This document shows, piece after piece, positions 2,651 through 62,826 of a DNA stretch of 64,000 bases (its first letter is position 1; each line of letters starts with the position of its first letter). The notes under the pieces are model-generated. The model did not search any database, was not told the origin of the DNA, and saw only the letters and a list, made by a program, of their open reading frames with translations. The stretch is taken from assembly GCF_000024185.1 (NCBI RefSeq), contig NC_013790.1, forward strand, positions 372,001-436,000, read 5' to 3'. The stretch comes from Methanobrevibacter ruminantium M1 (GTDB lineage Archaea; Methanobacteriota; Methanobacteria; Methanobacteriales; Methanobacteriaceae). Both the position numbers and the translations under genes were made by a program.

Positions 2651-5600
2651 ATGGATTCTGGAATGGATTATTTTGAAAGATTGGAAAGTGAAACACAACG
2701 TCTCTACGAGATAGCAAATGAAGCAAGATCTAAGGGTTTTGATGTAGAGCTTGAAACAGAGATTCCAGTGGCAAAGGATTTAGCAGAGCGTGTGGAAGGG
2801 CTTGTAGGTCCTAAAGGCATAGCTCGACGTATTAAAGAGCTAGAGGCTACTGGCATATCTCGTGAAGAGGTTGCATTTGAAATTGCAGCTGAGATTGCAT
2901 CTCAAGAGTCTAGCGAAACTGGAGCAAAGCTTGAAGCTGAGAAACAGGCTTTTGCAGATCAAGGCCTTCGTACAGCACTTGCTATCATCACTGAAGGGGT
3001 GGTTGCAGCGCCTTTGGAAGGTATTTCAGGTGTAAAGATTAAAAGTAATTCAGATGGCACAAAATATGTGGCAGTATACTTTGCAGGACCTATTCGTAGT
3101 GCAGGAGGTACTGCAGCAGCATTATCCGTTCTCCTTGGTGATAAAATACGTGTAGCTACTGGACTTGACAGATTCAAGCCTACCGATGATGAGATTGAAA
3201 GATATGTGGAAGAGGTAGAGCTTTACGAATCTGAAGTAACAAACCTTCAATACTCTCCGACTCCAGAGGAAGTAAGGTTTGCAGCAAGAAGCATTCCTGT
3301 TGAAGTCAGCGGAGAGCCTACCGACCAGATTGAAGTTTCCCACAGGGACCTTCCTCGTGTAGAGACCAATAACATTAGGGGAGGAGCCCTTCTTGCGATG
3401 GTTGAAGGGGTTATTCAAAAGTCCAAGAAAATTCTAAAAATCTCTAAAAAACTCAATTTGGATAGCTGGGAATTTTTAGCAGAGTATGCTAAAGGTATCG
3501 GCTCATCTCAAGAGGAAGAAAAGTCAGAAGAGGAAACTGAAGAAATCGTTGAGGAAATCGACGATAATATTATTGATAAGGATGAATTGTTTGCCCATTC
3601 AAAATACGCCCACGATATCATTGGAGGAAGGCCTGTTTTAGGATACCCTTCTGAAAAGGGCGGTTTCAGACTAAGATATGGAAGATCTAGAAACACTGGC
3701 CTTGCTACAATGGGGGTTCATCCGGCAACTATGGAACTATTGGAATTTTTAGCTGTCGGAACTCAACTTAAGATAGAAAGGCCTGGAAAGGGTAACTGTG
3801 TAGTTCCAGTTGATTCCATTGAAGGGCCTACAGTAAAATTAAAGTCTGGTGAGGTTCGCAGATTAGATTCCATAGCTGATGCAAGGGAAGTCAAGGGAAA
3901 AGTGGTTGAAATACTCTTTTTAGGAGACATGCTTGTTGCATTCGGCGAATTCTTAAGAAACAACCAGCCTATGTTAGGCTCTTGCTGGTGTGAGGAATGG
4001 TGGATTGAGTGCATAAGAAACAGCGACAAATACAAATCATTCTCCAATGACAGCGAGCTTTATGACTATCTTATAGAGAGAGGAATCGATTTAAGCATTG
4101 AACATTTCATCTCACATGAAGACTCTTCAAAGTATATGGACTTTGATAGGGAAAGCTTCAATCTTAATTTCCTTGAGAAAAAGCGTTATACTGCCGAAGA
4201 GGCCTTTAGAATCTCATATGACTTTAGTGTTCCACTTCACCCTGAATACACATATTATTATAATGACATATCCCGTGAGGACTTGGCTTATCTGAATGAA
4301 TGGCTAGACACTAAAAGGGATTATCTGTCAACTGACTACTTGAATGGAGAGGATTTAATTCTTGATTTGGCTCCTCAAAAGAGAATCCTTGAGATATTGG
4401 GATTGGTTCATAAGCTGATTGATAAAAAGGTAGTCATTGATAGGGATCATGCTTATGCCCTAATGAAAACCGTTGGAAACGGCTCTGCATTAGAAGATAA
4501 TGATGGGGACTTATCATCTGAAGTTAAAACAATAGATTATTCCAAATACCTTGATGATGACCATTATAAGTCAAAGGTTGTTGACATACTCAACGAAAAC
4601 ATCGACTTTGAGATTATGGATAAGGCTCCATGCTATATAGGCACAAGGGTAGGACGTCCTGAAAAGTCTAAGGAAAGGATGATGCGCCCTGCTCCTCATG
4701 TCCTTTTCCCAATTGGAAACAATGGAGGAAGCAGACGTCTAGTGGCTGAAGCTGCCAAAAAGAGAAAAATCAATGTTGAAATTGCAAGAAGACAATGCAC
4801 AAACCCTGATTGTGGATTAAGCTCATTCATGGCAATTTGCCCTCACTGCGGCGCTCCAACTGAAATCACCAAAGCAAGTCAAAAGGACATTAACCTGTCC
4901 ACCATGCTATCAAAGGCTTCAAATAACATTGGAGTTCGTAAGGTTGATGAGGTTAAAGGTGTAATTGGTCTTATTTCAGAGGATAAGCTCCCTGAACCTT
5001 TAGAAAAAGGTATTCTTCGTGCGAAAAATGGTGTCTTCACATTTAAGGAAGGAACCATTCGTCATGACTCTACAGACTTGCCTCTTACCCACTTCATTCC
5101 AAGGGAAATTGGCGTTACTGTTCCAAAATTAATCGAAATGGGATATACTCATGACTGCTATGGACAGGAAATAGTGAGCGATGACCAGATAATTGAACTG
5201 AAGGTTCAGGATATTGTAGTTTCAGACAATTGTGGCGATTACCTTGTAGGTGTAGCTAATTTCGTTGACGATCTATTGGAAAAGTATTATGGAATGGACC
5301 GGTTCTATAATGTTGAGGACAAATATGACCTTATCGGCCATCTCATTGCAGGTCTTGCACCTCACACATCAGCAGGGGTGTTGGGCCGTATTGTAGGATT
5401 CACTAAGGCATTGGGCTGTTATGCACACCCTTATTTCCATTCTGCAAAAAGGAGAAACTGTGACAGTGACGAAGATTCTGTCCTATTGCTTCTTGATGCT
5501 CTAATCAACTTCTCCAAATCATATCTTCCTAGTACCCGTGGTGGAAGTATGGATGCTCCTTTGGTTTTATCCACACGTATAGACCCAGAGGAAATCGACG

Positions 5601-6214
5601 ACGAATCACATAACCTGGACATATTTGAACGTTTCCCATTGGGATTCTACCAGAAAAGCCAAGAGCCTTTAAAGCCTGCAGATATGCTGGAATTTGTTGA
5701 TAATGTTGAAATGCATCTTGGAACTGACAGACAGTATCATGATTTGATGTTCTCACACCATACCTCAAACATTCATGCAGGGCCTAAGGTTTGCCTTTAC
5801 AAGCGTTTAGGCTCTATGAAAGAAAAGGTGGAGGCTCAAATTCATTTGGCAGAGCTCATCCGTGCAGTAGACCAAAGAGGAGTTGTAGAAGGTGTTCTTT
5901 CATCCCACTTCCTGCCGGATATCATGGGAAATTCAAGGGCTTTCTCCAAGCAGAAGGTCAGATGCCCTAAATGTGGCGCCAAGTATAGAAGAATGCCTCT
6001 TACAGGCAAGTGCAAATGTGGAGGGGACCTTATTCTAAGCGTTTCCAAGGGTTCTGTTGTGAAATATCTGGAAATTTCCCAGAATCTTGTAAACAGGTAT
6101 CCTGTTTCACATTATCTTGAGCAAAGATTGGAGATTCAAGAGTTTGGTATCAATTCACTCTTTGAAAGTGATAAATCCAAGCAAAGCTCTCTTGATGTGT
6201 TCTTCGGCAAATAA
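2651..6214 (+). CDS. polC: DNA polymerase D (PolD) large catalytic subunit DP2
   Basis: DP2 is the catalytic subunit of the archaeal replicative polymerase D and works with the exonuclease subunit DP1. At 1,187 residues it is intein-free length. The N-terminal GPIRSAGGTAAALSVLLGD segment and the IGTRVGRPEKS motif are typical of the family. The catalytic carboxylates lie in NCDSDEDS, with Asp938 and Asp940 corresponding to the double-psi-barrel aspartates. Two zinc sites are visible: CTNPDC...CPHCG near residue 715 and CPKCG...CKCGG near residue 1104. The last ten residues (QSSLDVFFGK) form a PCNA-interacting PIP box. ATG 2651 follows AAGGGATTATA; Met5 is a possible alternative. The gene stands alone between repeat-rich spacers. 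Confidence 0.97.
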   Translation: MDSGMDYFERLESETQRLYEIANEARSKGFDVELETEIPVAKDLAERVEGLVGPKGIARRIKELEATGISREEVAFEIAAEIASQESSETGAKLEAEKQAFADQGLRTALAIITEGVVAAPLEGISGVKIKSNSDGTKYVAVYFAGPIRSAGGTAAALSVLLGDKIRVATGLDRFKPTDDEIERYVEEVELYESEVTNLQYSPTPEEVRFAARSIPVEVSGEPTDQIEVSHRDLPRVETNNIRGGALLAMVEGVIQKSKKILKISKKLNLDSWEFLAEYAKGIGSSQEEEKSEEETEEIVEEIDDNIIDKDELFAHSKYAHDIIGGRPVLGYPSEKGGFRLRYGRSRNTGLATMGVHPATMELLEFLAVGTQLKIERPGKGNCVVPVDSIEGPTVKLKSGEVRRLDSIADAREVKGKVVEILFLGDMLVAFGEFLRNNQPMLGSCWCEEWWIECIRNSDKYKSFSNDSELYDYLIERGIDLSIEHFISHEDSSKYMDFDRESFNLNFLEKKRYTAEEAFRISYDFSVPLHPEYTYYYNDISREDLAYLNEWLDTKRDYLSTDYLNGEDLILDLAPQKRILEILGLVHKLIDKKVVIDRDHAYALMKTVGNGSALEDNDGDLSSEVKTIDYSKYLDDDHYKSKVVDILNENIDFEIMDKAPCYIGTRVGRPEKSKERMMRPAPHVLFPIGNNGGSRRLVAEAAKKRKINVEIARRQCTNPDCGLSSFMAICPHCGAPTEITKASQKDINLSTMLSKASNNIGVRKVDEVKGVIGLISEDKLPEPLEKGILRAKNGVFTFKEGTIRHDSTDLPLTHFIPREIGVTVPKLIEMGYTHDCYGQEIVSDDQIIELKVQDIVVSDNCGDYLVGVANFVDDLLEKYYGMDRFYNVEDKYDLIGHLIAGLAPHTSAGVLGRIVGFTKALGCYAHPYFHSAKRRNCDSDEDSVLLLLDALINFSKSYLPSTRGGSMDAPLVLSTRIDPEEIDDESHNLDIFERFPLGFYQKSQEPLKPADMLEFVDNVEMHLGTDRQYHDLMFSHHTSNIHAGPKVCLYKRLGSMKEKVEAQIHLAELIRAVDQRGVVEGVLSSHFLPDIMGNSRAFSKQKVRCPKCGAKYRRMPLTGKCKCGGDLILSVSKGSVVKYLEISQNLVNRYPVSHYLEQRLEIQEFGINSLFESDKSKQSSLDVFFGK

Positions 6215-6226
6215 ATGTTAGGTATT

Positions 6227-6380
6227 CTTTATTAGATCTTTTAATCTTTATTAGTTCTTTTAATCTTTATTGATCTTTTAATCTTTATTAGATCTTTTAA
6301 TCTCCTTTAACGAGGTTTTTAGATTTATTTTTTTATTAAATCTTTTAATCTCATTTAACGAGGTTTTTAGATTTATTTTT
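6227..6380. repeat. Tandem repeats downstream of polC
   Basis: About four 18-20 bp units containing ATCTTTTAATCTTTATT are followed by two 56-bp units containing TTTAACGAGGTTTTTAGATT. There is no coding potential. Their position right after the stop suggests a 3' UTR or termination zone. Confidence 0.7.
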
Positions 6381-6441
6381 CAGTAATTTTTTTACAAGTT
6401 ATTTAACTGAACTAGTGAAAACTATCAAAGATATAAATTTG

Positions 6442-6560
6442 TTCGTAACAAGTCGAATGATTTATATACATCTTATGATAAATATTATTTCGTGAAGTAA
6501 CTAACATTATGTTTGTATACAAACAGTTAATGTGTTTACTAACTTTCGTATGATATCGAA
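6442..6560. promoter_or_regulatory. Palindrome-rich control region upstream of nrdD
   Basis: Three dyads are visible. TTCG-N8-CGAA occurs at 6442-6457 and again at 6545-6560. Between them is a perfect 14-bp palindrome, GTTTGTATACAAAC (6511-6524), inside a longer imperfect dyad of roughly 45 bp. TATA-like AT stretches follow. The spacing suggests cooperative repressor sites for the ribonucleotide reductase gene. The regulator is unknown; the sites do not match the bacterial NrdR box closely. Confidence 0.55.
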
Positions 6561-6674
6561 CAGATATTATACATCTAATTACATAATTATATTTACTTAA
6601 ATTAATAATAAGCTCAATTTTATATATTATTTATATTTTAAGTATCATTTTTATAATTATAAAAGCAATTTAAT

Positions 6675-6800
6675 TCTTTAGATTGCATTTAATCTTATAA
6701 AAAAAGCAATTGGTGCTGGTTATTTATTTATTGGTCAGATTGCATTTAATTTTATAAAAAAAGCAATTAATGCTGGTCATTTCTTGATTGGTTAAATTGC
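6675..6800. repeat. 57-bp tandem repeat in the nrdD leader
   Basis: Two imperfect copies starting near 6681 and 6738 share GATTGCATTTAAT and AAAAAAGCAATT, with a third degenerate partial copy. Each copy can fold, because ATTGC and GCAAT pair, so a leader RNA structure is possible. Confidence 0.6.
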
Positions 6801-6860
6801 TTATATGTTTCGATTTAAATCTTATAGATAATGGGTTTAAAAATTAATGAAGGTGTTAAA

Positions 6861-9173
6861 GTGGAAAATGTGTATAATGTAGAAAATGATATTAGGAAAG
6901 CTAAAATCACTGTTAAGAAAAACAACGGTGTCTGTGAAGCTTTCAGTTATGAAAAATTGTTAAAGTCTTTAGTTATGGTTGAAGCCCCATATTTTGAGTC
7001 TGAAAAGATTGTTTCAACTGTTGTAGAAAACTTATACGACGGTATCACTACTAAAGAAATCAAGAAGATCGTTTACGAATGCTTAGAAGAGGTTGACTCT
7101 GAGGCAGCTAACAAATATCTCGCTAAGACTACCTTGAAGGTACGTTCCTCAAGAGATAAGATTGAACCATTCGACATGGCTAAGATTGCAAGCACCCTTG
7201 TAGAGGAAACCGGTGCTTCCCAAGAGACTGCTTTTGAAATCGCATCTGAAGTATGGAAAGAACTTAAAAAGCTCAATGTAGAATACCTCACTGCTCCTAT
7301 GATTAGGGAAATCGTAAACACAAAGCTTGTAGAGTATGGGCTTGAAGACTTAAGAAGCAGATACACCCGTTTAGGAATTCCTGTTTATAACATTACATCA
7401 TTGATTGAAAATGGTAACAGAGACAATGCAAACATGATGCATAACCCTGAATCCATTCACAAATATGTTGCTGATGAAGCATTGAAGCAATATGCTCTCT
7501 TGCATCTATTGCCATCACACTTGGCAGATGCACACATGTCCGGTGACATTCACATTCACGATTTGGAATTCTTCGCTGGAAGACCATTAAACTGTCTCCA
7601 ACATGATATAAGGGCATTCATCAAATACGGCCTTAAAGTGGACGGTACAGGTGACCACACTTCTGTAGCTGCACCTCCTTCCCATATGGAAACCTTGATG
7701 AACCATACTGGCGAAATCATGCTTGCAGCTCAACAGAACATGTCTGGTGGACAAGCTATGTCCCTTTGGAACGTATTTGTCGCTCCATTTGCAAGAGGAA
7801 GAACCTACGAAGAGGTAAAGCAATCCATTCAAATGCTTGTCTACAACTTGAACATGGCTTATGCAGCAAGAGGATCACAAGTTCCATTTACCAGCATGCA
7901 ATTGGAATTCGGCGTTCCAAACTTCTTAAAGGACGTAACTGCATACGGTCCTAAAGGACAAGTCGTAGGTACTTACGCTGACTTTGAAGATGAAACCAGA
8001 ATGATTCAAAGGGCATTCACTGAAATCTTGCTTGAAGGAGATTCAGAAGGCAAGCCTCACCTATTCCCAAATACTATCTACACATTACGTGAAGAGACCT
8101 TGAATGGTGACTATGATGATGACATGCTCCTTGTTCACGAGCTTTCAGCAAAATACGGATCTTCCTACTTTGTAAACATGTTGCCTGACTACAGAGGTCA
8201 AATGGCTAACTATATGGGTTGCAGAACCTGTCTCCAGGACACTTGGACCGGTGACTGGGAACAAGACTGTTTAAGAACTGGTAACCTCGCTTATGTAACC
8301 TTGAACATGCCTAGAATCGGTTACCAATCCAATGATGAAGATGATGTATTCGAATACTTAGACAATTATATGGACTTAGCTGTAGAAACCTTGATGATTA
8401 GAAGAAAGCAAGGTCTTAACTGCTTGAATAACTTTGACATCCTACCGTTCCTTGACCAAGAGGTTGACGGAGAAACCTATTACAGAATCCAAAACTCAAC
8501 CTTATCCTTTGGTTTCTGCGGATTGAACGAAATGTTACTTGCATTGTTCGATGAAGGCATAGAAAACCCTGATGCTAACAAGTTCGGTATCAAATGTTTA
8601 GAATACATCAATGCAAGAGCAAAAGCATTGCAAGAGGAAACCGGACTCAGATGGTCTGTACTCCAGACCCCTGCTGAATCTACCGCTTACAGATTTGCAA
8701 CCTTAGATAAGGAACAGTTCGGAGATAAGGCAATCTTGCAAGGTGACAATGGAGCTAACTACTACACTAACTCCTCACATGTCCCTGTAAACTCTGACAT
8801 TGCATTTGCTGACAAGATCAAAATCGAAGGCCAATACCATAAGCTAACTCCTGGAGGACACATCTTCCATGCATTCATGGGTGAATCCTACTCTGATCCT
8901 GAAGCATTGATGAGCCTTACCAATAAGATTGCAAGAAAATCAGACATTGGTTTCTGGGCTTACAGTTCAGCATTCAGTTTCTGCTTAAACTGTAAAACAT
9001 TGATGAAAGGATTAAGCAACAAATGTCCTTCCTGTGGTGAATCTGCAGATGTAGAATGGTATGACAGAATTACTGGTTACGTACAACAAGTAGGTCATGC
9101 TAAATCTGCTAACGGCGGATGGAATGCAGGTAAACGTCAAGAATTAATTGACAGACGTAGATTTGAACAATAA
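6861..9173 (+). CDS. nrdD: Anaerobic ribonucleoside-triphosphate reductase (class III)
   Basis: This glycyl-radical enzyme makes dNTPs from NTPs without oxygen. An ATP-cone regulatory domain occupies roughly the first 100 residues, followed by the ten-stranded barrel. The C-terminal four-cysteine zinc site is CLNCKTL...CPSC, and the radical loop is RITGYV, with the glycyl radical glycine at codon 9075-9077. I prefer the GTG at 6861 because AGGTG precedes it by 6 nt. The longer frame from ATG 6831 (780 residues) has no good ribosome site and adds ten residues. The activase NrdG is not in the window. The leader carries several dyads, so regulation is likely. Confidence 0.96.
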   Translation: MENVYNVENDIRKAKITVKKNNGVCEAFSYEKLLKSLVMVEAPYFESEKIVSTVVENLYDGITTKEIKKIVYECLEEVDSEAANKYLAKTTLKVRSSRDKIEPFDMAKIASTLVEETGASQETAFEIASEVWKELKKLNVEYLTAPMIREIVNTKLVEYGLEDLRSRYTRLGIPVYNITSLIENGNRDNANMMHNPESIHKYVADEALKQYALLHLLPSHLADAHMSGDIHIHDLEFFAGRPLNCLQHDIRAFIKYGLKVDGTGDHTSVAAPPSHMETLMNHTGEIMLAAQQNMSGGQAMSLWNVFVAPFARGRTYEEVKQSIQMLVYNLNMAYAARGSQVPFTSMQLEFGVPNFLKDVTAYGPKGQVVGTYADFEDETRMIQRAFTEILLEGDSEGKPHLFPNTIYTLREETLNGDYDDDMLLVHELSAKYGSSYFVNMLPDYRGQMANYMGCRTCLQDTWTGDWEQDCLRTGNLAYVTLNMPRIGYQSNDEDDVFEYLDNYMDLAVETLMIRRKQGLNCLNNFDILPFLDQEVDGETYYRIQNSTLSFGFCGLNEMLLALFDEGIENPDANKFGIKCLEYINARAKALQEETGLRWSVLQTPAESTAYRFATLDKEQFGDKAILQGDNGANYYTNSSHVPVNSDIAFADKIKIEGQYHKLTPGGHIFHAFMGESYSDPEALMSLTNKIARKSDIGFWAYSSAFSFCLNCKTLMKGLSNKCPSCGESADVEWYDRITGYVQQVGHAKSANGGWNAGKRQELIDRRRFEQ

Positions 9174-32184: not shown

Positions 32185-32673
32185 ATTTCTCACTTTCTAA
32201 TTATATCAGATTTAATATTTAATATTTATTTTTTTTTAAATTATACAATTATTAAATACTTAATGATTATCTTTGCAGTTTGATAAAAATCTTAATTTTT
32301 GTATATATTAACTATTGTTATATTTATTTCTCATATTATATAAACTAATATTCATATCTTTATATTTTTATTTATTAATCTTTTTCTATAATATAATTAA
32401 TTATTTTTACTTATTTAAGTTAATTCTAATATTATTTTTCTGAAATAATGTCTTATTTAGCTTAAATTTGTAAAATTTCTTTCTTATTGGCTATAAAAAA
32501 AATGTATTTTTAATTGATTGTAATAATTAATTATTCTGGGTCTGACCTCAATATAACCCTAATTTTACTGTCTATTTTTGTACATTTGTCTTAAAAGTTA
32601 CGAATTAAAAAAACATTTCTTTTCAAATGCTCTTAGATAATAGAGATTTCATATGGGAGGGATATATATCATC

Positions 32674-33993
32674 ATGAAGACTTTTAGACAACAGCTATTG
32701 GAAGACCCTGAATTCCAGAACTACCTGTTGCAGAGACCGAACCTGACGGAGAGCAGCCTGCAGTCATACCTCAATGCCGCCACCAACTTCGTGAGGTTCA
32801 CAGGGGAGCCGTTCTACAAGACCGTGCATGAGCTCAGAAGCCAGCAGAACGATAGGATTGAGAACAACATCATCATAAGGTTCAACCCGAACCAGTCAAG
32901 GATAAACATCATGCAGTTTGAGTTCATAGAATACCTCAAGGGAAGGGGCTGCACCGAGGTGAGCATAGACTCCTATGTCAGGTACATGAGGACCATACTG
33001 AGCACCTTGGGAATCATACTGCCCAAGTCTCCGAAGCTGGACGACACTCCACAGGACTGGTATCTCCTGACAAAGGACGACATAAAGTATGTCCTCGACA
33101 CAGCAAATCTGCAGTACAAGGCGGTCATCAATTTCGCTGCCGTTACAGGACTGAGAGTGAGGGACATGAGGTCATTGACCATCAAGGACTTCATGACTGC
33201 GACCGAGGAGTACCATGGCTGCACGGAGGTCGAGGACTTCCTGGATTCAGCACCTGACGGGATGATAGGCTTCTGGGAGCTTTTCCCTCAAAAGACCAGA
33301 AAGTTCAGGCTTCCCTGCAAGGTGTGCAACACCCCTGAAAGCAGCGACCTTTTGCTTTTCTCATTGAATGAGCGTGTGAAGTACTTTGAATGGAAGAACG
33401 AGAAGGACGGCACTGACCTGAAGATCACCAAGAATGACCCTCTCTTTGCAAGCCGCCAAAGGAAGTACAAGAACTTCATAGCGCCCAACAGCATAAGCTG
33501 GACCCTGTCCCAATACAGCGAGAAGCTGAGCGCCGAGAGGGAAAGGGTCTTCAAGTACAAGCTGGAGCATGGCGAGATCAGTCAGGAGACCTATGACGAA
33601 AGCGTTGCGACAATCCCCAAGTTCCATGCGCATGGGCTCAGGAAGTTCTTCATCTCAACATTGGCTAAGAACCGTGTGGATGCAAGGATAAGCGCACTTA
33701 TGGAAGGGCACAAGGCTCCGCTGGTAACGGATAGCCACTACATCAACAACGATTACCTGAAGGAGACAATCAAGGAGGAGTACATGAGGTGCATTCCTGA
33801 CTTGAGCTTCGAGAATGTTGAGGTCCGTTTCCTTACAAGCGAGGAAAGGAAATCCTTGCAGCAGAAGATAGATGAGCTTCAGGAAGAGAACGAGAACATG
33901 AAGAAGGACATGGAGAAGTACATTGACGATGCCGTCCATGAGAAGATGAAGGACGCCTTCGAGAACTGGCTGAACATTCAGGACTCAAAATGA
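32674..33993 (+). CDS. int: Tyrosine recombinase (provirus integrase)
   Basis: This integrase catalyses insertion and excision of the provirus. It has an N-terminal SAM-like core-binding domain and a catalytic domain with Arg161 (TGLRVRD), His320 and Arg323 (HGLR), a GHK histidine and the nucleophile Tyr356 (DSHYIN). The last 50 residues form a charged coiled coil. I use ATG 32674; ATG 32653 is in frame but lacks a ribosome site, while GGAGGG at 32656 lies 12 nt before 32674. It marks the left end of the provirus and is the first gene with clearly foreign codon use. Confidence 0.93.
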   Translation: MKTFRQQLLEDPEFQNYLLQRPNLTESSLQSYLNAATNFVRFTGEPFYKTVHELRSQQNDRIENNIIIRFNPNQSRINIMQFEFIEYLKGRGCTEVSIDSYVRYMRTILSTLGIILPKSPKLDDTPQDWYLLTKDDIKYVLDTANLQYKAVINFAAVTGLRVRDMRSLTIKDFMTATEEYHGCTEVEDFLDSAPDGMIGFWELFPQKTRKFRLPCKVCNTPESSDLLLFSLNERVKYFEWKNEKDGTDLKITKNDPLFASRQRKYKNFIAPNSISWTLSQYSEKLSAERERVFKYKLEHGEISQETYDESVATIPKFHAHGLRKFFISTLAKNRVDARISALMEGHKAPLVTDSHYINNDYLKETIKEEYMRCIPDLSFENVEVRFLTSEERKSLQQKIDELQEENENMKKDMEKYIDDAVHEKMKDAFENWLNIQDSK

Positions 33994-35787: not shown

Positions 35788-36615
35788 ATGAAAACACAAG
35801 ATCTAATTAATATAATAAATGATGAGGAATCTCCTGTATTCCTCAACAGGGAAGTCTTTGAGATGGACTATGTGCCGGACATCTACAAATACAGGGACGA
35901 GCAGCTGGCGAAAATGGCGATGTACTGCAATTCAATACCTGACAACATAGCTCCCAAGAACCTGCAATTGTGCGGAGGCAATGCGACAGGAAAGACCACA
36001 ACATTAAAGCAGTTCTTCAAGATGTTGAACGAGGCTTTTCCAAACATAGTAACAGTCTACATCAACTGTCAGCTGTTCAACACAGAAAACACAGTCTACG
36101 GAAAAATATACAACAAGCTGTACGGAGTAAAGGGCTCGATAAACGGCAAGTCAAACACCATGCTCTTCGACAAGATTGTCGCAAGGCTTAAGAAGGAAAA
36201 TAAGATATTGATTATAGGCTTGGACGATTTTGACAGCTTCAAGTCTCGCGATGGGCTCAACAAGATGCTTTACAACTTCCTGAGAATCCATGAGGCTGAG
36301 GAAGGCATACAGATCTGCATCTTCACCGTCAGCAACAAGGAGAATCTGAAGCTTGCTCCTTCCGTCGAGACAATCTTCAACAGGGTTCCGATATTCTTTG
36401 ACCAGTACTCCTTGGAGCAGATGTACCACATACTGGACGACAGGTGCGCCTTCGGTTTCTATCCTGGCGTGATAAGCGATGAGCTGGTGAGGGTTGTTGC
36501 CGGCAAGTCCTATGACCTGGGCAATCTGAGGTATGGCATTAAGCTTCTGAGCGCTGCCGGTCAGAAGGCTGAAGTCTTTGGTGATGGAAAGATAATAAGG
36601 AATTTTCTTGATTGA
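35788..36615 (+). CDS. Orc1/Cdc6-type AAA+ ATPase lacking the winged helix
   Basis: The N-terminal segment FLNREVFEMDYVPDIYKYRDEQL is typical of archaeal Orc1/Cdc6. Walker A is GGNATGKT (residues 63-70), Walker B is LIIGLDDFDS (Asp146-147), and the lid has a sensor-2-like YDLGNLRYGIKLLSAAG. The protein stops at residue 275, just after the lid, so the C-terminal winged-helix DNA-binding domain of normal (about 380-residue) proteins is absent. Viral Cdc6 normally recognises origins and helps load MCM. A reduced form may bind through its AAA+ initiator-specific motif or through host Cdc6. GAAGGGGAAA precedes the ATG. Confidence 0.85.
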   Translation: MKTQDLINIINDEESPVFLNREVFEMDYVPDIYKYRDEQLAKMAMYCNSIPDNIAPKNLQLCGGNATGKTTTLKQFFKMLNEAFPNIVTVYINCQLFNTENTVYGKIYNKLYGVKGSINGKSNTMLFDKIVARLKKENKILIIGLDDFDSFKSRDGLNKMLYNFLRIHEAEEGIQICIFTVSNKENLKLAPSVETIFNRVPIFFDQYSLEQMYHILDDRCAFGFYPGVISDELVRVVAGKSYDLGNLRYGIKLLSAAGQKAEVFGDGKIIRNFLD

Positions 36616-38856: not shown

Positions 38857-39309
38857 ATGACTAAGGAATTTGAGGACTTCATGAGAAGGAACACAGGACT
38901 GCTTGTTTTCTTGAGATGGGACACAGTGGCATATCTGAAATACCTTGAGTCCCATTATGACGAAAGGAAGTACGAATGCGCTTACAGATTGTTGGAGGCA
39001 ATCGACAATCTCTTTGACTTCTACCAGATAACCTTCAGCAAAAAGACTGAAAGGGAAATTCCTGACCAGCTTTTTGAAAAGGACAAGATAAACAAAGGCT
39101 TCCTTTCACACATAGGAAAGGCTTGCAAAAAGCAGTCTGATTTTTACGGTCAGAGATGGAAGTCCACAAGAGGAATCAGAGATGCCTACGGACACTATTC
39201 CGCAGGAAACTTCCTGTTTGCAGACATCTACGGTTGCCTGCACAGGATAAGCGACGATTGCTACAGGATTTTGAACTTTAGCGAATATGAAATTGAGGAG
39301 AAAGCATGA
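38857..39309 (+). CDS. Conserved-looking helical protein, unknown
   Basis: This 150-residue, mostly alpha-helical protein is rich in Tyr, Phe and charged residues, with no catalytic signature I can name. It starts directly after the membrane-protein stop and overlaps the next gene by ATGA, so it is co-translated within the early operon. Confidence 0.65.
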   Translation: MTKEFEDFMRRNTGLLVFLRWDTVAYLKYLESHYDERKYECAYRLLEAIDNLFDFYQITFSKKTEREIPDQLFEKDKINKGFLSHIGKACKKQSDFYGQRWKSTRGIRDAYGHYSAGNFLFADIYGCLHRISDDCYRILNFSEYEIEEKA

Positions 39310-40061
39310 ATGAGATAGTTACTACAACTAACGAGAATAATGTACCTGTCGACGTTGACTATGCCATCGAGGAATGGAAGGCATACCAGCGATTGACCAG
39401 AGAGCTATTGGACGAAACAGATTATCAGACACACAGAGGCAGGAAGTACAAGACCAAGAGCGCTTGGCAGAAGTACGCACGTGCCTTCAACATAAACACA
39501 CAGATAATCGACAAGGAAATCGTCAAGAATGACAAGGGAATCGTCATTGAGGCTGAGTATACTGTCAGAGCCACCTTGCCTAACGGACGCTTTGTCGAGT
39601 CAGACGGAAGCTGCGACAGAAGAGAGTCCGGAAAGAGGGAAATGAGCAACCACAGCATAAAGGCGACAGCCAAGACCCGTGCAACCAACAGAGCCATAAG
39701 CGAGCTCATCGGTGCAGGGGACGTCAGCGCTGACGAATTGGATCCTGCATTCGACAAGGTGCAGCACAGCAAGACCAATCATGTCATTGAGGCGGAAGTT
39801 GCAGAGATAATTGAATCTCCGTATGACAAAAATGCGGGTTTTGAGACTGCCGACAAGATTGAGCCTGTGGATGAGGACCCTGTCTGCAAGAATTGGGTGA
39901 AGACCATCTGCAAGACAATCAAGGCAGAGGGAAAGCCTTGCCTTAAAGGTGTCCTCATCCAGAAGGCTAGGACCATAGGCACCATGACCGACGAGGAAAG
40001 GAACAGGCTCATCGAGTACATAAAGACACTTCCGAAGGGAGAGGTGAACCTCGATGATTGA
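39306..40061 (+). CDS. Candidate Rad52-like single-strand annealing protein
   Basis: The 251-residue protein contains a beta-rich core (EAEYTVRATLPNGRFVESDG) followed by a helix, SIKATAKTRATNRAISELIG. That pattern, a substituted beta-sheet then K/R-A-T helix, recalls phage Rad52/Sak-type annealing proteins, and its position in a replication operon fits. The identification rests on pattern only. The last 90 residues are acidic, then helical. It overlaps the neighbours at both ends. Confidence 0.4.
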   Translation: MNEIVTTTNENNVPVDVDYAIEEWKAYQRLTRELLDETDYQTHRGRKYKTKSAWQKYARAFNINTQIIDKEIVKNDKGIVIEAEYTVRATLPNGRFVESDGSCDRRESGKREMSNHSIKATAKTRATNRAISELIGAGDVSADELDPAFDKVQHSKTNHVIEAEVAEIIESPYDKNAGFETADKIEPVDEDPVCKNWVKTICKTIKAEGKPCLKGVLIQKARTIGTMTDEERNRLIEYIKTLPKGEVNLDD

Positions 40062-40284
40062 GTGCATACAGGAAGAGGGAGACTTCACGGATTGGGAGGT
40101 TCCTTCCTCCTCTTCCGACATCAAGTACATAGTTTCAGTGGATGATGAGGGAAACCTGTTCTGCAGCTGTCCTGACTTCTATTACAGGAAGTCCAGGATG
40201 AACCCTCACATCTCAAACCCTGAATCCTATTGCAAACACATCAGACAAGTCTTGGAGGAGGACAATAGATTGCAAATGCTCTAG
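40054..40284 (+). CDS. SWIM zinc-finger protein
   Basis: The 76-residue protein has the SWIM pattern CxCxn CxH: CSCPDFYYRKS, then YCKHI. SWIM fingers bind DNA or proteins and often accompany recombination factors, for example Rad51 paralogue partners. Overlap with the preceding Rad52-like candidate suggests a joint recombination role, which is inference. It ends the operon that begins at 38142. Confidence 0.75.
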   Translation: MIECIQEEGDFTDWEVPSSSSDIKYIVSVDDEGNLFCSCPDFYYRKSRMNPHISNPESYCKHIRQVLEEDNRLQML

Positions 40285-40342: not shown

Positions 40343-41347
40343 ATGGATAATATAAATAAGACAAAAACAAGTTTAGCTAAGTTTGAAGAGTTTTTCAGCA
40401 CTGTATACAAGGACGAAGTCATGGAAGTTTTGGAAAAGTATCCTGAGGAAAGGACATTGGTTGTGGACTATGAGAATTTGGAAATGTTTGATCCTGATTT
40501 GGCAGACTTGTTGATTGAAAAGCCTGACGAAGTAATCGCAGCTTCACAGAAAGCAATCAAGAACATTGACCCATTGATGAAAGATCCAAAGTTGGACATC
40601 AAATTCAAAAATGTGTCAAACTGCATTGATTTTGTGAATGCAGACAGCAAATACATTGGAAAGTTAATATCTTTTGAAGCCAAAGTCATGGAAGCTAAGG
40701 AACCTAAACCAATACTTGACATTGCAGTCTATGAATGTAGGGGTTGCATGAGTTTGCGTGAAATACCTCAAACCATCAATTCAAGTTTAGAACCATCACT
40801 ATGTCCAGAATGTGGAGGGAGGTCTTTTAGACTGCTACAAGATGAATCAGAGTTCTTGGAATCACAGCTATTGATTGTCTCTTCTGATGACACTTCTAAA
40901 AGTTTAAAGGTTCTTCTGCTAAGGGATGAATGCTCTTTTGACTTGTATTCCATGGGTCAGGAAGTAAGAATAACTGGCATATTGAAATCTTTTTCTTCTA
41001 ATTATGGATATGAATATTTTTTAGAATGCAATTTAATTGAAATATTAAATGATTCTGAAGATTCTGAATATGATGAATATGGCAACAGAAACAGTCCAGA
41101 GTATCGAACCTGGCAAAAAGTAGTCATAGATTCAGACAGAGTATGCCAATGCTGTGGAGGATCTAAGCATTTGGAGGCTCACCATATCTTCAGCTATCAA
41201 AATAATCCAAGTTACAGGGTTAATTTGGAGAACGGCATTGCTTTATGTAAATGGTGCCATAGCAAATACCATAGTTATTATGGCAAGGACGCCTCTCCAA
41301 AAAGCCTAATTAGATTCTTAAAAAGATTTGGGAGGTATGATGGCTAA
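40343..41347 (+). CDS. MCM N-terminal domain fused to HNH endonuclease
   Basis: Residues 1 to about 245 look like the MCM helicase N-terminal region. The helical A domain (FEEFFSTVYKDEVMEVL, then DPDLADLLIEKPDEVI) is present, as are a zinc finger with Cys132, Cys135, Cys154 and Cys157, and an OB fold ending MGQEVRITGIL. The AAA+ motor is missing. In its place residues 265-310 form an HNH nuclease: Cys268/Cys271, AHH (280-281), Asn297, Cys302/Cys305, His306. The protein should bind or ring around DNA and nick or cut it. GAGGTG is the ribosome site. The downstream RHH gene overlaps its end. I know of no described protein with this fusion. Confidence 0.85.
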   Translation: MDNINKTKTSLAKFEEFFSTVYKDEVMEVLEKYPEERTLVVDYENLEMFDPDLADLLIEKPDEVIAASQKAIKNIDPLMKDPKLDIKFKNVSNCIDFVNADSKYIGKLISFEAKVMEAKEPKPILDIAVYECRGCMSLREIPQTINSSLEPSLCPECGGRSFRLLQDESEFLESQLLIVSSDDTSKSLKVLLLRDECSFDLYSMGQEVRITGILKSFSSNYGYEYFLECNLIEILNDSEDSEYDEYGNRNSPEYRTWQKVVIDSDRVCQCCGGSKHLEAHHIFSYQNNPSYRVNLENGIALCKWCHSKYHSYYGKDASPKSLIRFLKRFGRYDG

Positions 41348-41771
41348 CAAGATTAGAGTTAATCTCACGGTTGACCCTAATTTGTGGCAATTAGCAAAAG
41401 ACAAGTTACCTTGCAGCAGAAGCGAATTCTTTGAGAATCAGTTGAAGATGTTCTTAGGGATTGAAGATGACGAGTCGGAAATCATTAAGGACATCCAAAC
41501 CAAAGAAAATGAGATTAACGCACTAAGAGACAAGTTATGTCATGTTCGCAAATCAAAGCAGTTGAAATTGGAATCAAACAAATCTATGGAGAAGGCTATG
41601 GCAAGCTTAAACAGAATGCACAAGAAATATGGGAAAATCGGAGAGAACCAGATTAGGAACCTCGCCCATGTTCACAAGGTTGACTTTGATGACTTGAAGA
41701 AGGAATGTCAGGACAACTGCATGAACATATTTGAATTTGCAGAAGTTCCTAAGCATGATAGCGTAATGTGA
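41340..41771 (+). CDS. Ribbon-helix-helix DNA-binding protein
   Basis: The first 45 residues (KIRVNLTVDPNLWQLAKDKL, then PCSRSEFFENQLKMFLG) form a ribbon-helix-helix domain. A coiled coil follows, then a C-terminal region with NMGxN-like helices. GGAGGT lies inside the 3' end of the MCM-HNH gene, and ATG 41337 or 41340 is the start, so the two are translationally coupled. It probably binds the direct repeats just downstream (41794-41911) and controls or assists the nuclease fusion. RHH proteins commonly autoregulate. Confidence 0.75.
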   Translation: MANKIRVNLTVDPNLWQLAKDKLPCSRSEFFENQLKMFLGIEDDESEIIKDIQTKENEINALRDKLCHVRKSKQLKLESNKSMEKAMASLNRMHKKYGKIGENQIRNLAHVHKVDFDDLKKECQDNCMNIFEFAEVPKHDSVM

Positions 41772-46082: not shown

Positions 46083-46827
46083 ATGAAGATCTACTTGGCG
46101 GCAGCGGACACCATGAGCGAGGACATCATAAGGCTCCTGCCGGTTGCCAAAAGGCTTCACTGGAACCTGTTCAGCTACTACTATCTCCTGACCCTTAAGA
46201 AGATGGAGGACTATGACATCATAAGGAAGGCTTCAAAAAAGCGTCCTTATAGACAGCGGAGCGCACAGCTTCCAGAAGGGTAAGAAGGTTGACTGGGACA
46301 GGTTCACCAAGCAGTACGCCGACTTCATACAGGACACGGACAACGAGAAGGTCCATGGATACTTCGAGATGGACGTCGACAACCTGCTGGGATATGACAA
46401 GGTACTGGAATTGAGGTCTTTATTGGAGGAGGTCACGGACAAGGTGATACCCGTATGGCACAAGAACCGCGGAATCAAGGACTTCAAGCAGATGTGCCAG
46501 GACTACAATTTCGTCAGCATAAGCGGCTGGAGAAACGAGGACGTCAAGGATGACCAGTTCATCCATTTCGTCAGGCATGCACACAGGAACGGCTGCAGGA
46601 TTCACGGATTGGGATTGACACGGAGAAAGGTTCTCGACAGGGTTCCCTTCGACAGCGTCGACAGCAGCAGCTGGCTCCAGACCATATTGTATGCAAGGCT
46701 TGGGCAGAAGCAGTTGGATTCCAAGTTCGCAACCGAAAGGAGAGGCGATCTGGCGGTGCTGTCCTACATCAAGTGGATGAAGACACAAGAAGAGTACTAC
46801 AAGAAATGGAGACATTATCATGATTAA
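46083..46827 (+). pseudogene. DpdA-like DNA 7-deazaguanine transglycosylase, frameshifted
   Basis: Two consecutive frames make one protein if one A is removed from the run AAAAAA at 46235-46240, giving about 247 residues. The join restores VLIDSGAHSFQKG, the DSG motif with the catalytic aspartate of the tRNA-guanine transglycosylase fold, followed by GYFEMDVDN, VIPVWHKN and FVSISGW. Phage DpdA proteins of this type exchange guanine in DNA for a 7-deazaguanine such as preQ0. As written the upstream frame ends at 46283. The shift may be a sequencing error in a homopolymer, a phase-variable run or decay. A canonical -1 slip would meet TAG. The transporter gene overlaps the end. Confidence 0.7.
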
Positions 46828-47476
46828 TGAAAGGATAAGACCTTATTTGAATTTTAGCTTCAATGACAAGAAAGTCATTTTCGTCACATTGTTCGTTGTG
46901 AGCAATCTGATAAGCAACCTGTTAGCCATCAAGGTTTTCAACTTGGGATTTTGGGGATTGACAACCGATTGCGGAAATCTCCTGTTCCCGTTAGGATACC
47001 TTATGGCAGACGTGATTACAGAAGTCTATGGAGAGAGGACAGCTCGAAGGGTCATATTGCTTGGGCTCTTTGCAAACATATTGCTGATTGTGGCTACCAC
47101 ATTGACTGTCTACATGCCGTATCCAAGCTATTGGACAGGACAGGGAGCGTATGCCTACATGTTCGGATTCACTCCTAGAATCGTGCTTGCAGGGTTCATA
47201 GCATACTTGGTGGGACAGTTCGTGAATGCGAGACTTATGGTGCTCATCAAGAAATGGACCAACAGCAAGTACCTGTTCATGAGGACAATCGGATCTACAC
47301 TTGGAGGGGAGCTTTGTGATAGTTGCATATGCAGCAGCATTGCTTATTACGGTATTGTGCCTAACTCTGGCATATTGCTATTTATTCTTATGCAGTATGT
47401 TGTTAAGGTTACTTGGGAAGTGGTGATGCAGCCTCTGACATACAAGTCAATCGCTTGGGCTAGAAAAGACGGATAG
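46820..47476 (+). CDS. YhhQ-type queuosine-precursor transporter (VUT family)
   Basis: The 218-residue membrane protein has about six helices and the family signature LMADVITEVYG, with the later IGSTLGGELCDSC variant of the usual GQxxDT segment. YhhQ imports 7-deazaguanine precursors such as preQ0/preQ1. Located immediately after the DpdA-like gene with an 8-nt overlap, it probably supplies precursor for DNA modification. The host could also make preQ0 for archaeosine, so the transporter may act as a booster. Confidence 0.85.
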   Translation: MINERIRPYLNFSFNDKKVIFVTLFVVSNLISNLLAIKVFNLGFWGLTTDCGNLLFPLGYLMADVITEVYGERTARRVILLGLFANILLIVATTLTVYMPYPSYWTGQGAYAYMFGFTPRIVLAGFIAYLVGQFVNARLMVLIKKWTNSKYLFMRTIGSTLGGELCDSCICSSIAYYGIVPNSGILLFILMQYVVKVTWEVVMQPLTYKSIAWARKDG

Positions 47477-48080: not shown

Positions 48081-49556
48081 ATGACAGCTGCAAGCAGGGT
48101 GAATGCTCACGGAACAATGGGTCTTGGAAGATGGAGCATTTACATAAACAACGGATTCTGGAAGCCTAGGGACTTTGATGTCCTGATAATAGAGCTTCTG
48201 CAATATGCAATTCAGGGACGGGTGAGCGGCATATTGCTGGGAGTTCCCTCAAGGCACGGAAAGTCCACACTTATCAGTAAGAACTTTTGCAGCTATTTTT
48301 TATCATATTTCCCTAATGAGCAGGTCATCCTTTCAAGCTATTCGCAAGGATTGGCAAGTGAGTTCGGAGGACAGGTGAAGGACATTGTCAATCATTACGG
48401 CTACCTTTCACCGTACAAGCCGACCATCAGGTCTGATAGTAAGGCTAAAAACAAGTTCAAGCTCAATGAGCCTTATCGTGGACAGATGTTGAGTGCAGGT
48501 GCTGGCGGTTCAATCATGGGATACGGTGCAGGTCTCCTTATTGTCGATGACCCTATCAAGAACGTCGCTGAAGCCGAATCCAAGGTACGTCAGGCAAAGC
48601 TCAAGGACTGGTGGGGAGGAACCATCAAGTCAAGGGTCCAGAGGAGAAGCAACGGACTTCCTCCTATCAAGATTGTCATTGCACAAAGACTTCATTTAAA
48701 GGATTTGCATGGAATCATAAAGGAGACAGAGCCGACAATACCTGCAAATGACGCATTCAGGATTTTAAGGAACGGAGGCTCAATCGACCCTAACACATGG
48801 GTTGACTTCAACCTTCCTGCAATCTGCGACAGCGAGGACGATATTCTTGGAAGAAAGATAGGTGAAGTGCTTTGGGAAGAGCAGAGAGACTATGAATGGC
48901 TCATGGCTGAAAAGAGAAGCATGGGCTCATATCTCTTTAATAGTATCTATCAAGGACAGCCTGTAGAGCGTGATGGTGAGATATTTAAAAGAGAATGGTT
49001 TCAGGATGAGGTCAATCACAAGCTCACATGCCTCATTGACCCTAAGGACATTCCGAAGGACTTGCCTCAGCTCAGATATTGGGATTTCGGTGCAAGCGGA
49101 GACGCTGGTGACGGAACCTCTGCAATCTTGACTAGCTATGATGGAGAATATCTGTATGTTCTGGATCTTGTTGCAGGAAAGTTTTCAAGTCTTAAAGTAT
49201 TGAAAACATTTAAGAGACTTTGTAAAAAGGACGGAAAACAAACTCGTGTAATGGTCGAGCAGGAGCCTGGAAGTGGCTCAAAACTATTGATTAAGAAGTT
49301 TAGGAGAGAAGAGGATTTAAGAGGATACAATATTCGTGCAGATAAGGTTCAGGTCAGTAAAAAAGTCAGGGCTTTTGACCTTGAAGGTCTTGCAGAGGAC
49401 AGGAGAATCAAGATGGTTCCAGCCCATTGGAACAATAAGTTGATTGACCAGTTGGTGGCATTTACAGGTGAAGATGGTGGAGAGGATGATATAGTGGATA
49501 CTATTACTGGCTCTTGCAGGTTCTGGACAAGACCTAGAAGAAGAGTTAAAGCGTGA
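48081..49556 (+). CDS. terL: Terminase large subunit
   Basis: The packaging motor has an N-terminal ATPase with Walker A GVPSRHGKS (residues 54-62) and Walker B LLIVDDP (Asp156-157). The C-terminal RNase H-like nuclease begins at YWDFGASGDAGDGT, whose aspartates coordinate metal, with later MVEQEPGSGS. At 491 residues it is a full-length head-tail virus terminase. It ends just before a minus-strand repeat gene. Confidence 0.94.
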   Translation: MTAASRVNAHGTMGLGRWSIYINNGFWKPRDFDVLIIELLQYAIQGRVSGILLGVPSRHGKSTLISKNFCSYFLSYFPNEQVILSSYSQGLASEFGGQVKDIVNHYGYLSPYKPTIRSDSKAKNKFKLNEPYRGQMLSAGAGGSIMGYGAGLLIVDDPIKNVAEAESKVRQAKLKDWWGGTIKSRVQRRSNGLPPIKIVIAQRLHLKDLHGIIKETEPTIPANDAFRILRNGGSIDPNTWVDFNLPAICDSEDDILGRKIGEVLWEEQRDYEWLMAEKRSMGSYLFNSIYQGQPVERDGEIFKREWFQDEVNHKLTCLIDPKDIPKDLPQLRYWDFGASGDAGDGTSAILTSYDGEYLYVLDLVAGKFSSLKVLKTFKRLCKKDGKQTRVMVEQEPGSGSKLLIKKFRREEDLRGYNIRADKVQVSKKVRAFDLEGLAEDRRIKMVPAHWNNKLIDQLVAFTGEDGGEDDIVDTITGSCRFWTRPRRRVKA

Positions 49557-61390: not shown

Positions 61391-62826
61391 TTAATCATCT
61401 AATCCGTAATGCCACCGAGGAGTTATCCAATGTTTTGGCACCTTCTTATCATAGTAATATTCTTCCCATTCTTCCAAAGTCCTAAATTTATGTATTCTTC
61501 TATTTTTCTTCTTTAGAGAGTCACGAACTAATCTCAAATTTGGATCAATTTTATCAAGATTAACTAAAACAGTCTCATCAGTAATCTCATTAATAGACAT
61601 AATACGTACATCAGAATCAAAAGCATTTTTAACAATATCCTTTAGAATATACGCGTCGCTAATTTTCTTTACAGCTTCAAGACGAACAAAATAATCAGAA
61701 TCATTTTTAGCAACACTTATTAAAACAGATTCATCAGTAATCTTCTTAATAGTTTCACGTCGAATAGTGGAATTAATATCATTCTTAGCAATATCCTCTA
61801 AAACAGACTTATCATTAATCTTCTTTACAGCTTCAAGACGAACAAAATAATCAGAATCATTTTTAGCAACACTTATTAAAACAGATTCATCGCTAATTTT
61901 CCTTACAGCTTCAAGACGGACAGACGGATTATTATCCTTTTTAGCAATATTAGCTAAAACAGACTTATCATTTATCTTCCTTACAGCTTCAATACGAACT
62001 ATCCAACTAGGGTCATTTTTAAGAACATAAGCTAAAACAGATGAGTCATTTATCTTCCTTACAGCTTCACGACGAACTTTAGAATCGGAAGCATTTTTAG
62101 CAAAATCGATTATAACAGTCTTATCATTTATCTTCCTTACAGCTTCAATACGCACATCCTCATCATTATTATTTTTTGCAAGTTTGATTATAATAGTCTC
62201 ATCATTAATCTTCTTAATAGCTTCAATACGAACTTTAGAATCGGAAGCATTTTTAGATATATTCTCTAAAACAGATTCATCATTAATATTCCTTACAGCT
62301 TCAAGACGGACATTCTCATCATTATTATTTTTAGCAATATCTTCTAAAACAGATGAGTCATTTATCTTCCTTACAGCTTCACGACGAACATCATAATCAG
62401 AAGCATTTTTAACAATATCAATTAAAACGTAATTATCACTAATCTTCCTAACTGCTTCAAGGCGAACATTAGAATCAGAACTCTTTTTAGCGACATCAGC
62501 CAAAACAGATTCATCATCAATATTCTTTACAGATTCGCGACGAACATTAGAATCAGAACTCTTTTTAGTGAATAGGTTAGATATATCATTCCAAGGCAAA
62601 CCTCTTTTTAAAACTTTCTGCCTCAATTCTCCAAAAGATGAAGCAATGATATTTCCTCTCCCTCTTTCAGTTACATATAAATAACTCCAAGTGTTATCAT
62701 TTTGTCGCTCAATCTTATAATCTATAACATTTTCTTTAGCCATAACTTCTCCTTCTTTGTTTTTTCACTTAATTGAAATTTTAACAAAATTTCTATAATA
62801 AATAAGATGGAGTTCAGTAGTTAGAG
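61331..62826. repeat. 13-bp direct repeats around the HEAT-like cargo gene
   Basis: TCAGTAGTTAGAG occurs at 61331-61343 and 62814-62826, on either side of the minus-strand gene. Both are followed by A/T-rich sequence. This is consistent with a target duplication or recombination crossover. Confidence 0.6.
61391..62743 (-). CDS. HEAT-like repeat cargo protein
   Basis: The 450-residue protein has about fifteen roughly 23-residue units of the pattern SDSxVRxEAVRKINDxSVLxxIAKN, resembling short HEAT or adaptin-like alpha solenoids. They come after a 60-residue unique N-terminal domain and before a WxTPRWHYGLDD C-terminus. Such solenoids bind proteins. The gene is AT-rich and antisense. GGAGAAG precedes its ATG 62743. 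Confidence 0.75.
   Translation of the reverse strand: MAKENVIDYKIERQNDNTWSYLYVTERGRGNIIASSFGELRQKVLKRGLPWNDISNLFTKKSSDSNVRRESVKNIDDESVLADVAKKSSDSNVRLEAVRKISDNYVLIDIVKNASDYDVRREAVRKINDSSVLEDIAKNNNDENVRLEAVRNINDESVLENISKNASDSKVRIEAIKKINDETIIIKLAKNNNDEDVRIEAVRKINDKTVIIDFAKNASDSKVRREAVRKINDSSVLAYVLKNDPSWIVRIEAVRKINDKSVLANIAKKDNNPSVRLEAVRKISDESVLISVAKNDSDYFVRLEAVKKINDKSVLEDIAKNDINSTIRRETIKKITDESVLISVAKNDSDYFVRLEAVKKISDAYILKDIVKNAFDSDVRIMSINEITDETVLVNLDKIDPNLRLVRDSLKKKNRRIHKFRTLEEWEEYYYDKKVPKHWITPRWHYGLDD

Follow-up and report, generated by a model that had tools for sequence, protein, structure and literature searches.

A tailed provirus family of the Methanobacteriaceae carries the motorless N-terminal half of a host-type MCM joined through a linker to a phage HNH nuclease. 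The member described here is a protein of 334 amino acids, read from a stop-free translation, and belongs to the provirus phi-mru of Methanobrevibacter ruminantium M1; its gene lies in the 64-kb stretch of DNA that we analysed (the window). An MCM divides its work: its N-terminal tier holds on to DNA, which the motor tier moves. Evolution has here separated the tiers: the N-tier has been maintained without a motor and without its known grip on single-stranded DNA (ssDNA), and a nuclease has been attached to it. Conservation of the fusion suggests that the virus uses the docking surfaces of a helicase to aim a nuclease at replicating DNA.

MCM and HNH domains are each already known, as are viral MCMs and HNH nucleases. 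In the open-access literature on MCM-HNH fusions, phi-mru and methanogen viruses we found no description of the fusion, nor did that literature yield an MCM N-tier kept after losing both its motor and its hold on ssDNA, or MCM motors that stand alone without Walker B. There is a real chance that the mechanism itself is new. This small protein, from a rumen methanogen that is sequenced and in culture, also makes other binding partners of the MCM N-tier directly testable.

Domains and fold of the fusion protein

A preliminary description of the gene had read it as MCM N-terminal, zinc and OB regions followed by a complete HNH site, with no Walker motif. Both points were confirmed. Pfam matched MCM_N (1.9e-10), MCM_OB (5.6e-9) and HNH_2 (1.2e-7, residues 268-313), all above the curated cut-offs, and the expected residues were found at their positions, C268, C271, H280, H281, N297, C302, C305 and H306 forming the HNH site. 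In an alignment of relatives these residues, like the four zinc cysteines, vary little or not at all. The MCM P-loop domain had no Pfam match in the 334 residues; an AAA+ motor (Walker A/B, arginine finger) is absent from the fusion ORF and from the rest of the window, and the sole MCM motor found genome-wide is that of the chromosomal MCM.

The best sequence match in the PDB is 1ltl, the N-domain of Methanothermobacter MthMCM (E 2e-59, residues 2-237), which shares domain A, the zinc domain and the OB fold at 47% identity in the structural alignment. The MCM-N fold, for which structure prediction had been proposed as a check, is present in the AlphaFold (AF2) model (pLDDT 84.6): Foldseek aligned the MCM part to 1ltl with E 2e-28 and a TM-score of 0.87 by target length, and the HNH part to phage HNH and NinG proteins. 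The sole internal stretch of very low confidence lies between the two parts (linker in Table 1), and looks in the model like a flexible tether. By MCM_N, MCM_OB and the zinc cysteines the protein classes as an MCM, but one without the motor, the ssDNA-binding (MSSB) residues and the allosteric communication loop, and it differs from archaeal MCM in these losses and in the added HNH. By its catalytic motif and paired CxxC zinc site it classes equally as a putative HNH (beta-beta-alpha metal) endonuclease. Phage HNH endonucleases (HNH_2, phrog_119) share this motif with two CxxC zinc pairs and, locally, a NinG-like fold; the fusion differs from them by the attached replicative-helicase domain. 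Likeness to NinG/Rap (phrog_5034, E 0.28) covers the HNH core only and is one of local fold, full-length similarity being absent. Two further assignments found little support: an NCBIfam match to IscB (E 2e-5) falls far below its cut-off and reflects the HNH only, and for an anti-phage defence family PADLOC gave only a weak HNH match (E 0.0015).

Table 1. Features of the window and stand-alone motor genes of related loci (positions in the window unless a locus is named)
Feature	Position	Strand	Basis or remark
Tyrosine integrase	32653..33993	+	left end of provirus
Cdc6/Orc1-like AAA+ ATPase	35788..36615	+	Pfam Cdc6_lid 1e-9; AAA+ and lid
RAD52-fold protein	39306..40061	+	predicted structure, Foldseek
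SWIM zinc-finger protein	40054..40284	+	Pfam SWIM E 0.001, marginal, just under curated cut-off
MCM-N-OB-HNH fusion gene, 334 aa	40343..41347	+	translation, Pfam, PDB sequence search, AlphaFold, Foldseek
MCM domain A (MCM_N, residues 13-75), helical	40379..40567	+	Pfam; family conservation
MCM OB domain (MCM_OB, residues 101-216)	40643..40990	+	Pfam; alignment
Zinc domain, Cys132/135/154/157	40736..40813	+	alignment
Linker, residues 237-248, low confidence	41051..41086	+	pLDDT below 50, between OB and HNH
HNH nuclease domain: helix 252-265, site 268-306, C-terminal helices to 329	41096..41329	+	Pfam, alignment, model
RHH-like/coiled-coil protein, phrog_12892	41340..41771	+	RHH assigned by eye
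Terminase large subunit	48081..49556	+	shows tailed-virus nature
Stand-alone MCM motor ORF	L037:1922-3061	-	directly upstream of nuclease gene, Methanobrevibacter proviral locus
Stand-alone MCM motor ORF	L041:12502-13581	-	directly upstream of OB-like-HNH protein gene (L041/G054), Methanobrevibacter proviral locus

Recurrence, descent and detached motors

The search for the same fusion in other archaeal viruses and proviruses, suggested earlier, was positive. The same MCM-N-HNH junction occurs in six other viral or proviral loci: two IMG/VR viral contigs (L004/G151 and L050/G152) and four Methanobacteriaceae genomes (L036/G066, L037/G050, L038/G048 and L039/G024), G066, G050 and G024 being Methanobrevibacter MAGs. 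Identity to the window protein (P0001) is 47-57% in these six full relatives. Together with the open reading frame, the repeated junction rules out a sequencing or assembly error, which had been named as a possible source of the join, as well as a chance fusion. A more distant MCM-N-HNH variant (L040/G108, L040:1112-2110) has lost the whole zinc domain. When a profile of the HNH part was run over 152 genomes of the phylum, the full fusions ranked top, and HNH searches across the order and phylum place the MCM-N fusion in the Methanobacteriaceae alone. Among 50,697 records of a phage collection, none covers 80% of the fusion protein. An HNH relative with 39% identity was also found in a Clostridia MAG from a gut sample (L086:5600-6010), suggesting that this type of HNH is passed between viruses of bacteria and of archaea.

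L036 and L050, the closest pair in the family, have an overall dN/dS of 0.22, which drops to 0.045 in the HNH part, as expected under purifying selection; the latter value indicates that the nuclease part is under strong constraint, and this together with the invariant site argues for nuclease activity. We built a maximum-likelihood tree from 50 MCM N-domains. A branch with ultrafast bootstrap 92 and SH-aLRT 99 separates the MCM parts of all seven fusions from the rest; they sit among chromosomal MCMs of the Methanobrevibacter type, and the full-length viral MCMs (L043, L051) fall elsewhere in the tree. A single capture of MCM-N from a host is likely from this grouping, but it stays short of proof because deep support in the tree is weak and several rows are long.

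Separate motor genes lie beside two of the nuclease genes. In L037, an MCM motor on its own, cut at the N/C linker (Pfam MCM 4e-34, plus lid and winged helix), is encoded immediately upstream of the fusion, and a similar motor lies in L041. Both lack Walker B, the helix-2 insert and the PS1 hairpin stretch, and in both the arginine finger is gone (SRF replaced by SHF or SKF); the L041 motor also lacks Walker A. By known MCM chemistry, proteins with these predicted sequences cannot be working ATPases. Separate dead motors were not found in the other fusion loci; viral contigs searched with each dead motor as a single query gave no match, and the viral contigs G151 and G152 contain no helicase motor. 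Another split or duplicated MCM was seen in L134 (G140), where a 273-aa motor fragment (3801-4622, minus strand) lies beside a 633-aa viral-type MCM (5437-7338, minus strand), with an RHH-like gene between them.

Losses in the MCM part and the viral setting

The seven fusions were compared in one alignment with 39 chromosomal MCMs from the order and the Pyrococcus (Pfu) MCM, of which the ssDNA contacts, R124 and R186, are known (PMC3970758). The R124 site is K in all 39 host proteins and E, G, D, K, E, S and D across the fusions; the R186 site is R or K in every host and basic in none of the fusions. In the window protein the two basic residues are replaced by E and I, and the allosteric communication loop, which faces the motor, is deleted. 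This loop has 13 residues in each of the 39 hosts and 6 in five fusions; the fusion family keeps 4% of its conserved positions. Domain C has likewise lost P210 and D212, two conserved residues on its surface, the former facing the motor (PMC2997501). Fusions keep 89% of host-conserved positions in domain A and 91% in the zinc domain, with all four zinc cysteines in 7/7, and the residue equivalent to Pfu F179, which is required for hexamers (PMC4627082), is aromatic in all seven. Four full-length viral MCMs, examined as controls, keep a loop of 12-13 residues, and one of their two sites is still basic.

Since these controls keep the loop, and domain A and the zinc domain are well kept in the fusions, the alignment points to uneven change rather than even decay: the parts that touch ssDNA and the motor are gone, and domain A and the zinc domain stayed. 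Judged by its residues, the MCM part no longer resembles an ssDNA-gripping helicase ring, although the lost DNA-binding residues could be drift after motor loss. Host-conserved OB positions outside the loop are kept only at 29-55%, and three fusions (P0001, L036 and L050) have a shortened form of the beta-turn that Pfu hexamers require; ring formation by the fusion is therefore uncertain. The proposal that the protein joins or mimics host MCM gains some support, because its MCM-N is closest to host MCMs and the parts likely to make contact (domain A, the zinc domain and the F179 equivalent) are kept.

The provirus phi-mru makes up the right part of the window and has a G+C content of 0.39, against 0.33 to its left. 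Four of its genes are tightly packed and overlapping, in the order annealing-like, SWIM, fusion and RHH-like; the start of the SWIM gene overlaps the stop of the annealing-like gene, and the ribosome-binding site of the RHH-like gene sits within the end of the fusion gene. All 14 PDB matches of the annealing-like protein in Foldseek at E<=0.001 are RAD52, from a modest model (pLDDT 60, core about 80), making it a probable single-strand annealing protein. It has no Pfam match and has homologues in L042, L043 and L051, possibly as an unrecognised annealing protein family of archaeal viruses. A SWIM homologue adjoins five of the seven fusions (window, L004, L036, L039 and L050), and the annealing proteins near other fusions are Sak4-like (L004 and L039) or Erf-like (L036). 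In L038 (G048) the fusion is an exception, standing alone beside a DNA methyltransferase and tail genes, outside a recombination module. The provirus region also holds a transporter gene of the vitamin uptake type (Vut_1, 46820-47476), just before the terminase genes, and a HEAT-repeat protein with short, very similar repeats (61391-62743, minus strand).

The operons of L043 and L051, apparently a conserved replication module of Methanobrevibacter viruses, run annealing-like protein, full viral MCM, RHH-like protein, DinG-type helicase (assigned by eye) and OB-HNH protein. Their annealing-like and RHH-like genes are homologous to those that flank the fusion in phi-mru, so the fusion holds the MCM slot of related viruses. 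Full-length viral MCMs (L043, L051 and halovirus MCMs) keep the motor and communication loop, unlike the fusions, which group with chromosomal MCMs and not with L043/L051. The OB-HNH proteins of L043, L051 and L041, also from Methanobrevibacter viruses, have in common with the fusion the C-terminal helices of the HNH, a preceding OB-like region and the type of replication operon; their N-terminal part is not MCM-N, and the OB assignment is weak (Pfam tRNA_anti-codon E 0.02). In yeast, the SWIM-containing Shu complex (a SWIM protein with Rad51 paralogues), Rad51 and Rad52 contact MCM (PMC11876325). This coupling of recombination to replication at MCM/ORC is a functional parallel only, and we claim no homology.

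Possible uses of a nuclease carried by MCM-N

We tentatively favour a model in which the MCM part docks or assembles and brings the HNH nuclease to replication-recombination intermediates. MCM-N would act as a docking and oligomerisation module that attaches the nuclease to host replication proteins at work on viral DNA, namely MCM, Cdc6, GINS or a loaded host MCM ring at its zinc-domain face; alternatively, it may assemble the nuclease into a ring of its own. The HNH would cut branched or stalled replication intermediates, and the ends or gaps would pass to the adjacent RAD52-like annealing protein (Erf-like or Sak4-like in relatives), with the SWIM protein taking part. The outcome would be recombination-dependent replication by a virus without a helicase motor of its own. 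Counting for this model are the fold, its recurrence, the tree group, selection, the selective loss, the MCM slot, the nearby annealing proteins, the motorless contigs G151 and G152, and the yeast parallel. Counting against it are the partly kept OB positions, the shortened beta-turn, L040 without its zinc domain, L038 outside the module, the marginal SWIM match, the modest RAD52-fold model and the possible drift of DNA-binding residues.

Phage NinG/Rap are thought to process recombination intermediates, and the OB-like part of OB-HNH proteins may oligomerise or bind DNA weakly. The fusion might likewise be a self-contained nuclease for branched DNA, its MCM-N giving only oligomerisation and weak DNA binding without contact to host replication. 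Separate OB-HNH proteins in the sister operons with annealing protein, full MCM and DinG-type helicase speak for this, as do the superposition of the HNH part on a NinG protein (rmsd 1.2 over 68 columns, 41% identity) and the low dN/dS of the HNH, the most constrained part. We nevertheless consider it unlikely, since no MCM regions are better kept than the regulatory domain A and the zinc domain, where a mere platform would need no host-like surfaces, and since the MCM residues that bind ssDNA are lost. A further rival is sabotage of host replication: as a motorless subunit built into host MCM rings or capping them, the protein would poison the rings and nick host DNA at its forks or origins. 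The MCM-N is closest to Methanobrevibacter-type chromosomal MCMs, MCM-MCM contact parts (the zinc domain and the F179 aromatic) are kept to some extent, and a dead motor without Walker B, as in two loci, would fit a dominant-negative subunit. Yet phi-mru, G151 and G152, having no motor of their own, probably need host MCM; the gene sits in a replication-recombination module, and OB interface positions are kept in part only, all of which make sabotage distinctly unlikely.

The preliminary description had also supposed that the viral Cdc6-like ATPase may place the protein at an origin; in its full form the idea has Cdc6 load an MCM-N ring at the viral origin, with replication then started by an HNH nick. 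A Cdc6-like AAA+ protein is encoded 3.7 kb upstream of the fusion, and archaeal Cdc6 binds MCM (PMC2997501). However, placement by Cdc6 has no support as a general rule: no Cdc6 match was found in the fusion-carrying contigs G151 and G152, which weakens the idea, although both contigs may be fragments. In phi-mru itself, no C-terminal winged helix was detected in the Cdc6-like protein, which is most likely cdc6-3, the prophage gene of M. ruminantium M1 reported to be truncated (PMC2812497). Nicking at the origin is a reading to which we give little credence, and we know of no HNH enzyme that nicks origins in an MCM system. Small free-standing HNH relatives in many phages might further suggest that a selfish homing endonuclease invaded a viral MCM gene and left a relic fusion. 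This has very little chance of being right: the HNH site is invariant and strongly constrained, the same junction recurs across proteins only about 50% identical, and the dead motor of L037 lies upstream, not downstream, of the fusion. No homing-type DNA-binding module (NUMOD/AP2-type) occurs among Pfam or PHROGs matches of the fusion, and every locus carries the gene as a uniform in-frame fusion, not one located in an intron or intein. Constraint, the invariant site and the missing module rule out a homing relic as the main reading.

A wider claim, possible though somewhat doubtful, is that the docking model describes a new kind of viral nuclease docked to the replisome. In viruses of the Methanobacteriaceae, captured pieces of host MCM would form a non-helicase complex (MCM-N-HNH, in some viruses with a dead motor as second subunit). 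By binding host MCM or becoming part of it, and by cutting DNA at the fork, this complex would couple host replication to viral recombination or divert it there. If docking is true, the virus ties its replication to recombination, or hijacks replication, through a fragment of a helicase, and the fragment offers a route to tether enzymes to archaeal replication complexes. The role of the zinc domain could be probed with the L040 variant, a natural deletion.
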